Assembly: GCA_025980465.1 (NCBI GenBank)
Contig: JAICXJ010000004.1
Span: forward strand, 62,001-126,000
DNA: 64,000 nucleotides
Reading direction: 5' to 3'
Origin: Frankiales bacterium
GTDB taxonomy: Bacteria; Actinomycetota; Actinomycetes; JAFAQI01
Position numbers and translations under genes: made by a program. Positions 54,302-58,149 of the stretch are shown in pieces. Under the pieces are notes generated by a model that ran no database searches, had not been told where the DNA came from, and saw only the letters and a list, made by a program, of their open reading frames with translations. How positions within the stretch are numbered: the first letter of the stretch is position 1; each line of letters starts with the position of its first letter.

Positions 54302-55888
54302 GTGCTGACCGCTACCGGCGTCGAGTTGCGCGCCGGTGCCCGGCTGCTGCTGGACGACGCCACCTTCCGGGTGGGGGCCGGCGACCGGGTGGGACTGGTC
54401 GGCCGCAACGGCGCCGGGAAGACCACACTCGCCCGAGTGCTTGCCGGCGAGGGTCAGCCGGCCGCCGGGACGGTCGAGCGGCGCGGCAGTGTCGGCTACC
54501 TGCCGCAGGACCCGCGCACCGGTGATCTGTCGGTGCTGGCGCGCGATCGGGTGCTCTCCGGTCGTGGCCTCGACGTCGTCATGGCGGATCTTCGAGTGGC
54601 TGAGGAGGCGATGGCAGCCGGGGACGAGCGGGCGCTGCACCGCTACTCGGCTGTCCAGGAGCGGCTGCATGTTCTTGGCGGTTACGCCGCTGAGGCCGAG
54701 GCGGCATCGGTCGCGGCCAGTCTCGGCTTGCCCGACCGGGTGCTGAGCCAGCCGCTGCGGACCCTGTCCGGCGGACAGCGACGCCGGATCGAGCTGGCCC
54801 GGATCCTGTTCAGCGGCGCCGACACGCTGCTGCTCGATGAGCCGACCAACCACCTCGACGCCGACTCGATTGTCTGGCTGCGTGAGTTCCTGCGCGGTCA
54901 TCGCGGCGGTCTGGTCGTGATCAGCCACGATGTCGAGCTGCTCGAGGTGACGGTGAACAAGGTCTTCCACCTCGACGCGACTCGGGGAGCCCTTGACGTC
55001 TACAACGTCGGCTGGCGTGCCTACCTCACCCAGCGCGAAACCGATGAACGACGCCGCAAGCGGGAGCGGGCCAACGCGGAGAAGAAGGCCGCGGTGCTCA
55101 ACGCCCAGGCCGACCGGATGCGCGCCAAGGCGACCAAGGCCGTTGCCGCGCAGCAAATGGCCCGACGCGCCGAACGACTGCTGGCCGACGTGGAGCCGCA
55201 GCGCCGGGCCGATAAGGTGGCTCGGCTTCGATTCCCCGACCCGGCACCGTGCGGGCGCGTGCCACTGACTGCGCGCGAGCTGTCGAAGTCCTACGGCTCG
55301 CTCGAGGTCTTCACCGACGTCGACCTGGCGATCGACCGGGGCAGCCGGGTTGTCGTGCTGGGTCTCAACGGCGCCGGCAAGACCACGCTGCTGCGGATCC
55401 TCGCCGGCGTCGAGCCGGCCGACACCGGCCAGGTCGAACCCGGCCATGGGCTGCGGCTCGGCTACTACGCCCAGGAACACGAGACCCTCGACCCCGCGGC
55501 GAGCGTGCTCGCCAACCTGGCACAGGTCGCCCCTGACCTGCCCGAGGTCGAACAGCGGCGGGTGCTCGGTTCGTTCATGTTCAGTGGGGACGTCGTGCAG
55601 CAGCTGGCGGGCACCCTCTCCGGCGGCGAGAAGACCCGTCTGGCGCTGGCGCGCCTCGTGGTATCCAGCGCAAACGTGCTGCTGCTCGATGAGCCGACCA
55701 ACAACCTTGACCCGGCGAGTCGTGACCAGGTGCTCGGAGCGCTTCGCTCCTATCGTGGTGCGATTGTCCTCGTCACACACGACGAGGGTGCGGTCGAGGC
55801 GCTGGCGCCCGAGCGCGTTCTGCTGCTGCCCGACGGCGTGGAAGACCACTGGAGCGAGGAATTGGCCGACCTTGTTGCGCTCGCCTGA
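54302..55888 (+). CDS. ABC-F family ATPase
   Basis: ABC-F proteins act on the ribosome, in translation control or antibiotic protection, not in transport. The 528-residue product has two ATPase domains: Walker A GRNGAGKTT and GLNGAGKTT, signatures LSGGQRRR and LSGGEKTR, and Walker B LLLDEPTNHLD and LLLDEPTNNLD. A linker of about 80 charged residues (roughly 240-320) joins them. The GTG start follows CGAGGAG. The 213-bp spacer upstream holds no clear gene. Housekeeping or resistance role cannot be told. Confidence 0.92.
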   Translation: MLTATGVELRAGARLLLDDATFRVGAGDRVGLVGRNGAGKTTLARVLAGEGQPAAGTVERRGSVGYLPQDPRTGDLSVLARDRVLSGRGLDVVMADLRVAEEAMAAGDERALHRYSAVQERLHVLGGYAAEAEAASVAASLGLPDRVLSQPLRTLSGGQRRRIELARILFSGADTLLLDEPTNHLDADSIVWLREFLRGHRGGLVVISHDVELLEVTVNKVFHLDATRGALDVYNVGWRAYLTQRETDERRRKRERANAEKKAAVLNAQADRMRAKATKAVAAQQMARRAERLLADVEPQRRADKVARLRFPDPAPCGRVPLTARELSKSYGSLEVFTDVDLAIDRGSRVVVLGLNGAGKTTLLRILAGVEPADTGQVEPGHGLRLGYYAQEHETLDPAASVLANLAQVAPDLPEVEQRRVLGSFMFSGDVVQQLAGTLSGGEKTRLALARLVVSSANVLLLDEPTNNLDPASRDQVLGALRSYRGAIVLVTHDEGAVEALAPERVLLLPDGVEDHWSEELADLVALA

Positions 55889-55909: not shown

Positions 55910-56060
55910 AGCGAGGTTCCGGCGATCTTGGGTTGCTGCGTCGACGTTGCGGGTACGCCCGACGTCACAGTGATATGAGTGGTATCGGACGCCCTGCGTC
56001 GTCTGAGATGCCCTGTCCGTTGCAATGTCCGCGGGGGAAAATGAAATTGGAGGTAGAGCG

Positions 56061-56267
56061 GTGGCCGAGCTGAAGAAGGGAAGCCGGGTCACAGGTGGAG
56101 AGCGCGACAAGCTGTCGGCGACGTTGCGGAGAAAGTACGACGGCGGGTCCAGCATTCGCGATCTGGCCGAGCAGACCGGCCGCTCCTACGGGTTCGTACA
56201 CCGTATTCTCGGCGAGTCCGGCGCCACCCTTCGTGGTCGTGGCGGCGCCACCCGGCGAAGGAAGTAG
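56061..56267 (+). CDS. Small helix-turn-helix protein conserved in Actinobacteria
   Basis: The 68-residue protein starts AELKKGSRVTG and has one HTH (about 30-56, with SIRDLAEQTGRSYGFVHRIL), ending in a basic Arg/Gly stretch, GRGGATRRRK. The GTG at 56061 has GGAGG 7 bases upstream; the open frame continues 12 codons further but lacks a site. Very similar tiny proteins occur in many Actinobacteria and probably bind DNA. The function is not known to me. Confidence 0.8.
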   Translation: MAELKKGSRVTGGERDKLSATLRRKYDGGSSIRDLAEQTGRSYGFVHRILGESGATLRGRGGATRRRK

Positions 56268-56269
56268 CG

Positions 56270-56968
56270 CTGAGCGACACCTTTGAGGCGCGGGGTGTCC
56301 GGCTCGACCTCAGCGGTGAGGTCGCACGGGTCACCCTGTGTCGGCCGGAGCGCCGGTCCCTCCTTCAGCGCCGATCTCGACCGGCGGATGCTCAGTCCGG
56401 AAGGGATGCCCGGCGAGGAGTCACTGGACCTGTCGAACACCGGCGACGACGTCGCTGCGGACCGGATCGCGCGCTACCAAGCCGGGTTCACCTGGCTGCG
56501 TGATTCGGCGTTCGTGTCGATCGCCGCGGTCCGGGGGCACGCGATCGGCGCCGGCTTCCAGCTTGCGCTTGCCTGTGACATCCGGATCGCAGCCGAGGAC
56601 GCGCAGTTCTGCATGTTCGAGCCGGCGCTGGGGCTGGTGCCCGACCTCACCGGTACCCAGCTGCTCCTCGATGCGGTCGGGTACTCGCGCGCGCTCGAGA
56701 TGTGCGCCACCGCGCGCCGAGTGGGTGCCGCCGAGGCCGAGCGGATCGGCTTGGTCAACCTCGTCGTCAGCGGTGACCAGCTCGACACCGCGACCAGCGA
56801 CTTGGTCGCCGCGCTCACCGCGACCCACCGCGATGCCGTCTCGCAGACGAAATCGCTGCTTCTCGGTGCTCGGGATCGCTCCTTCGATGAGGCCCGCCGC
56901 GCCGAACGCGAGGCCCAGGTGCAACGCCTGCGGCGCTCACCGGCGCGATCCCGGCACAGGCGACCTGA
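56270..56968 (+). pseudogene. Enoyl-CoA hydratase/isomerase family gene, frameshifted and internally deleted
   Basis: The N-terminal part (from a CTG at 56270) reads VRLDLSGEVARVTLCRPERR, a normal start for this family. About 27 residues usual in the family are missing, and the frame changes near 56345-56357 to GPSFSADLDRRMLSPEG. That second frame runs through GHAIGAGFQLALACDIRIAAEDA and VPDLTGTQLLLDAVG. Near 56930 the frame shifts again; the third frame would end LTGAIPAQAT at a TGA at 56966. With no normal start and two shifts it is probably inactive, unless these are assembly errors. Confidence 0.75.
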
Positions 56969-56997
56969 GCCAAGGTTCCGGCTGAGAGACTGCCGCC

Positions 56998-58149
56998 ATG
57001 GATCTGTCGCTCACCCCAGAACAGGAAGCCACCCGACGGAGCGTCCGCGAATGGGTCGACGCCGTCATCGCGCCGGCCGCAATCCGCAACGACCGCGAGG
57101 AACGGTTCCCTGAAGAGGGACTCGAAGGACTCAAACGTGACGGCTGGATCGGCCTGACGATTCCCGAGGAGTACGGCGGCGGCGGTGCCGACCCACTGAC
57201 GTATTGCCTGGTCGTCGAGGAACTCGGTCGCGGTGACGCGAATGTGCGCTCGATCCTCTCGGTGCACCTCGGTCTGGTGGCAGGCTCCATCACCCGGTGG
57301 GGGAGCGAGGACCACAAGCGGGAGTGGCTGCCGAAGATGGCGGCCGGTGACGTGCTCGGCTGCTTCTGCCTGACCGAGCCCGACCACGGCTCCGACCCGG
57401 CCGGGCTCGAGACCACTGCGGTCAAGGAGGGTGACTCCTACCGCATCAACGGCTCGAAGATCTTCATCACGAACGGTGACATCGCCGGCGTTGCGCTGGT
57501 GATGGCGCGCTCCGGCGGCCCCGGGGCGCGCGGCGTGTCGGCGTTCCTGGTGCCGTGCGACACGCCCGGGTTCACGCCGAAGCCGATCCACGGAAAGCTC
57601 GGCCTGCGCTCCTGCGACACCGCCGAGATCGCCCTCGACGACGTCGTCGTACCGGCCTCCGCACTGCTCGGCGGCGAGGGAGACGGGATCAAGGTTGCGC
57701 TGTCCGCCCTCGACGACGGCAGGATGTCGCTCGCGGCATCCTGCACCGGCCTGGCGCAGAACGCGCTCGAGGTGATGACGTCGTATGCCCAGCAGCGCGA
57801 GCAGTTCGGCCGGCCGATCGCCGCGTTCCAGCTGGTCCAGGAGCTGATCTCCGACACCGCCGTCGAAGTCGAGGCGGCACGGTTGCTGACGTGGCGGGTC
57901 GCGGACCTGAAGATGCGTGGCGAGAAGTTCACGCTCGCCGCGTCGATGGCGAAGTACTACGCGTCGGAAGCGTGTGTCCGCGCCGCGAATGCGGCGGTTC
58001 AGGTGCACGGCGGCTATGGGTACGTCGATGAGTTCGTCGTCGGCAAGCTGCTGCGCGACGCGCGGGTCACGACGCTGTACGAGGGAACATCGCAGATCCA
58101 GAAGCTGCTGATCGGTCGTGCGGTCACCGGGGTCTCCGCCTTCGGCTGA
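56998..58149 (+). CDS. Acyl-CoA dehydrogenase
   Basis: This FAD enzyme oxidises acyl-CoA to enoyl-CoA. The 383-residue product starts MDLSLTPEQEATRR and has the FAD/substrate motif CFCLTEPDHGSDPAG and the catalytic Glu E362 in LYEGTSQIQ. The chain-length preference cannot be told from sequence. The ATG lies 29 bp after the broken hydratase gene; the two may once have worked in sequence in beta-oxidation. It converges on the dioxygenase gene, 5 bp away. Confidence 0.94.
   Translation: MDLSLTPEQEATRRSVREWVDAVIAPAAIRNDREERFPEEGLEGLKRDGWIGLTIPEEYGGGGADPLTYCLVVEELGRGDANVRSILSVHLGLVAGSITRWGSEDHKREWLPKMAAGDVLGCFCLTEPDHGSDPAGLETTAVKEGDSYRINGSKIFITNGDIAGVALVMARSGGPGARGVSAFLVPCDTPGFTPKPIHGKLGLRSCDTAEIALDDVVVPASALLGGEGDGIKVALSALDDGRMSLAASCTGLAQNALEVMTSYAQQREQFGRPIAAFQLVQELISDTAVEVEAARLLTWRVADLKMRGEKFTLAASMAKYYASEACVRAANAAVQVHGGYGYVDEFVVGKLLRDARVTTLYEGTSQIQKLLIGRAVTGVSAFG

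Follow-up and report, generated by a model that had tools for sequence, protein, structure and literature searches.

Does the crotonase-family gene at positions 56270-56968 of the window (the whole 64,000-nucleotide stretch of Frankiales bacterium DNA analysed here) represent a gene that has decayed, or an intact gene that was assembled wrongly? The first-pass annotation of this DNA had offered both, a recent pseudogene or an assembly error. Our results support that reading of the locus and lean towards a real pseudogene. The window belongs to a 3.45-Mb assembly (G000; 106 contigs, 95.45% complete, 0.68% contaminated), and its genus is represented by one genome and one assembly. The site lies at 118.4 kb on a contig of 133,040 bases, 14 kb from the contig end.

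The broken gene and its neighbours

The features of the locus, all on the plus strand, are as follows.

54302-55888, +: ABC-F ATPase gene, upstream, intact, in a conserved operon; ORF of 528 aa, 79-90% identity to four family relatives, two stretches matching Pfam ABC_tran
56025-56267, +: small helix-turn-helix gene (HTH_58), intact, with its TAG stop just 5' of the broken gene; 76-82% identity to four relatives
56270-56356, +: 5' piece of the crotonase gene, starting at CTG; three of four relatives are 70-74% identical across 20-27 residues, with no match listed for L053
56354-56358, +: deletion junction with a change of frame, 92 nt short relative to most relatives when spacing is compared with homologues
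56355-56933, +: core piece of about 192 codons in a second frame (GPSFSADLD...REAQVQRLR), with a Pfam ECH_1 match
56373-56375, +: GAT (Asp) codon in the FSAG motif, aligned with Gly in 31 of 31 homologues
56925-56935, +: another change of frame close to the 3' end, placed by the frames of the pieces; a coding-potential screen also puts a flag at 56933
56933-56968, +: 3' tail (ALTGAIPAQAT-stop), 11 codons back in the frame of the 5' piece, with a TGA stop
56998-58149, +: acyl-CoA dehydrogenase gene, downstream, intact; ORF of 383 aa, 88-90% identity to four relatives

Three pieces in frames 2, 0 and 2 (coordinate modulo 3) were present as the first-pass annotation had described them. The N-terminal piece, read from 56270, is LSDTFEARGVRLDLSGEVARVTLCRPERR and ends at RPERR. 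Since the conserved parts do not share one frame, a full-length enzyme cannot be made by ordinary translation. When a full-length relative of 261 aa was searched against the assembly, it matched in two pieces, covering query residues 3-32 and 58-254. The segment after RPERR is indeed missing, although the size of the loss had been put at about 80 bp and is 92 nt when measured against the 33-codon spacer of homologues. Between RR and FSA(G), 23 of 27 homologues have 33 codons and the other four have 32, 34, 34 and 35, against 7 nt in the window; the motif was matched in 27 of 32 homologues (five gave no match), and two of the loci, L012 and L040, represent one gene. A repeat-mediated deletion was rejected, as no exact repeat longer than 3 nt with a spacing of 92 occurs around the segment in four relatives, the window's own ancestor not being visible.

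At the 3' end the shift returns the gene to the frame of the 5' piece for 11 codons up to TGA, as had been proposed, and the three relatives listed terminate 8 codons past the point at which this tail begins. To these lesions we add a third that had not been described, a Gly to Asp change at 56373 in the FSAG motif, a loop that bears an oxyanion-hole amide in this family. About 16 nt separate the change from the deletion junction, so it may share its event or be a local assembly fault. The lesions that disable the gene in the window are absent from its orthologues, the pattern by which a pseudogene is recognized.

The neighbours fared as the earlier reading had it: the ABC-F, HTH and dehydrogenase genes are whole ORFs conserved in four relatives. 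The order ABC-F, HTH, crotonase, acyl-CoA dehydrogenase, ABC transporter is kept in all four relatives examined, and in each of them the intact crotonase adjoins the same small HTH gene, as predicted.

Orthologues, losses and family assignment

The two closest orthologues of the core, from G003 and G008, are 79% and 76% identical to it (E 5.9e-94 and 6.8e-89) and occupy the same slot between the HTH and acyl-CoA dehydrogenase genes. In contrast to the window gene, they have one unbroken frame, the 33-codon segment and the Gly of FSAG. Eleven of the 12 family genomes (the window's own and ten relatives) match the core with an E-value of 1e-30 or lower. In the ten relatives the core is in a single open frame without stops and the missing segment is present; G000 carries the broken gene and G001 gave no match. 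In a wider draw of 393 genomes from the class, 173 including the window's own matched a full-length relative at E 1e-50, and among the matches listed only that of the window starts after query residue 18. One orthologue among these listed matches (G214:C9:662817-663572) has a single internal TGA.

Homologues that naturally lack the segment and keep a single frame would have refuted the first-pass reading. Every one of the 32 translated homologues has the segment, and a natural short form was likewise absent among the class-draw matches listed. In G001 (L099) the acyl-CoA dehydrogenase match begins 37 nt after the HTH match with no crotonase match in the locus. With the gene broken in G000 and absent from G001, the family has presumably lost it on at least two occasions. 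In G012 (L100), from another family of the same order, the HTH gene is followed by an ABC transporter gene, and neither a crotonase nor a dehydrogenase match was seen.

No second copy of the gene was found in the assembly. The 33 other matches to the crotonase query, all at E 3.7e-32 or weaker, lie in stop-free open frames of at least 247 aa; as the weakest has E 0.003, some of them need not be crotonases.

The name enoyl-CoA hydratase, given in the first-pass annotation, holds at the level of the family. Against Pfam PF00378 (ECH_1, cut-off 27) the window core scored 116.1 bits and the intact G003 protein 131.4 bits. The best ECH_1 stretch of the core covers profile positions 74-222 of 251, compared to 2-224 in the intact relative, and the window gene thus has no full-length domain in a single frame. 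Among the best 25 of 73 NCBIfam families none reached its cut-off for the intact relative (top score 134.5 bits against 249), so that enoyl-CoA hydratase proper (EC 4.2.1.17) has no support from an NCBIfam equivalog and the identity is given at family level. The solved structures nearest in sequence to the G003 protein, which was used for this comparison instead of the window gene, are PDB 4jsb/4jvt (E 3.1e-70), intact proteins deposited as 'Enoyl-CoA hydratase'. The G003 relative reads GAGFQLAL and FEPALGLVPD. Rat enoyl-CoA hydratase has two catalytic glutamates, Glu144 and Glu164, and the G003 relative presumably has Gln where the classical hydratases have their first catalytic Glu.

Decay, misassembly or a shortened protein

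Taken together, the window gene is very probably a single-copy actinobacterial crotonase-family orthologue that recently became a pseudogene in this lineage. A deletion of 92 nt would have removed the conserved stretch that follows RPERR and changed the reading frame, another small indel close to the 3' end would have put the frame back, and a Gly to Asp change would have struck the FSAG loop. The loss may have been tolerated because other crotonase-like genes exist in the genome and the gene is missing from another genus of the same family. We infer that the cellular DNA is the same as the assembly, and we infer the order of events as well. Bacterial pseudogenes formed by deletion and frameshift are familiar, and with its several disabling lesions, intact orthologues and residual constraint the window gene resembles them and is in no way unusual.

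The constraint on the core bears on the age of the break. In 43 near-invariant columns (at least 30 of 31 homologues agreeing; L012 was left out as the duplicate of L040) the window differs in one, the Gly to Asp change. The core otherwise looks constrained, which suggests that the break would be recent. With pairwise dS taken as 0.6-0.9, a neutral clock gives 0.3-0.45 neutral changes per site on the window branch, and a gene free along the whole branch would be expected to show 29-43 departures, compared to the one observed. The break would thus fall late on the branch, roughly in its last 2-3% with an upper limit of 11-16%, a dating that rests on high dS values (pairwise about 0.5-1.2 between genera), too large for a sharp dN/dS. 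On the window branch 28 of 184 core residues changed, and the ratio to G003 plus G008 is 1.08; the same ratio is 0.62 for ABC-F, 0.66 for the dehydrogenase and 0.86 for the ABC transporter (the misaligned HTH row of G008 was omitted from the dN/dS comparison). The core value is an apparent small excess over 0.62-0.86 and shows no clear relaxation.

If the gene is intact and the assembly or consensus is wrong, with a misjoin losing the 92 nt and an independent error displacing the frame at the 3' end, the core would look just as constrained and show no clear relaxation, and two of the three lesions do lie close together. Such an error, however, demands two separated frame errors and a missense change within one gene, at a site in the interior of a 133-kb contig, and the lack of an exact repeat at the spacing of the deletion in the four relatives also counts against a misjoin. 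Within the window the coding-potential screen marked five possible frame changes, namely 56933, three at gene junctions and one inside an open frame of 312 aa, and only 56933 read as real; in eight other genome stretches (146 kb) it raised 19 raw flags. Because the screen flags many gene overlaps and misses the 5' break, we treat it as weak evidence. On balance we consider an assembly error improbable, and the third lesion, the contig-interior site, the intact neighbours and the missing gene in G001 incline us to a real pseudogene.

That the core frame yields a shortened functional protein is far less plausible still, and we give it hardly any credence. Such a protein might correspond to the mechanical TTG-initiated ORF of 276 aa at 56283-57113; the core is conserved and its frame is open for 279 codons. 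Yet the product would lack both the N-terminal part and the stretch that follows RPERR, its first 24 residues are unrelated, the ORF extends 116 nt into the dehydrogenase gene, Asp replaces a Gly found in 31 of 31 homologues, and this form is absent from all 32 translated homologues. The same mechanical ORF spans the core and enters the dehydrogenase, and in annotation it could be mistaken for an intact enzyme.

The window gene is probably an ordinary recent pseudogene. As such it matters little beyond annotation, where it should be marked as broken, for automatic gene prediction may give an 'enoyl-CoA hydratase' of 276 aa that overruns the next gene. It also adds a second apparent loss of the crotonase gene within one family. 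The pattern of start codons in the relatives is more unusual than the pseudogene and merits a second look more than it does.

A CTG codon at the HTH stop

In the frame of the window's 5' piece there is no ATG, GTG or TTG back to 56057, and the codon at 56270 is CTG. We listed 55 distinct loci (repeats dropped). In 21 of them the HTH stop and the RN motif are no more than 130 nt apart, a cut-off chosen afterwards; L089 falls outside it, at 136 nt, in another frame and with GTG codons present. In 15 of these 21 tight loci the TGA stop of the HTH gene overlaps a CTG in the -1 frame as CTGA, at ten different distances from the RN motif (L011-L013, L015, L016, L018, L019, L021, L025, L029, L030, L038 and L086-L088). 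By family they divide as eight in f1, five in f10 and one each in f7 and f13. No canonical start was present in 11 of the 15 between 45 nt before the HTH stop and 12 codons before the motif. Contrary cases were the four CTGA loci with a usable GTG and the six tight loci that are not of the CTGA form. The frame common to the CTGA loci is partly inherited. The more distant L067, L070-L073, L077 and L078 likewise have CTGA at the HTH stop, with in-frame ATG codons further down, so the four letters alone are no proof.

From the arrangement of these sequences, the crotonase may be translated by stop-start coupling at CTGA, ribosomes that terminate on the HTH gene restarting at CTG and making the enzyme at a low rate tied to that of the HTH protein; we regard the case for and against this as evenly balanced. 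If true, the CTG start in the relatives would be a naturally repeated instance of coupled initiation and a testable example of the use of a weak start codon. CTG hardly initiates in mycobacterial reporters: in M. smegmatis it showed no enrichment among start codons (0.03%; PMC4633059). A comparable rare start, the GTC of sigR in Streptomyces, is established (PMC5472188).

A -1 frameshift that would fuse the HTH and crotonase genes, considered in place of CTG initiation, was set aside: inspection by eye showed no slippery heptamer common to the loci upstream of the stop, and G004 has its crotonase in the same frame as the HTH gene, separated from it by a TAA. A literature search for HTH_58 together with enoyl-CoA hydratase found no papers, and among the papers listed for CTG starts no title or opening of an abstract concerned the HTH-crotonase pair, which is no proof of absence. 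In the window itself (56265-56273) the HTH gene ends at a TAG two codons before a TGA, and that TGA still overlaps the CTG as CTGA (56270-56273).
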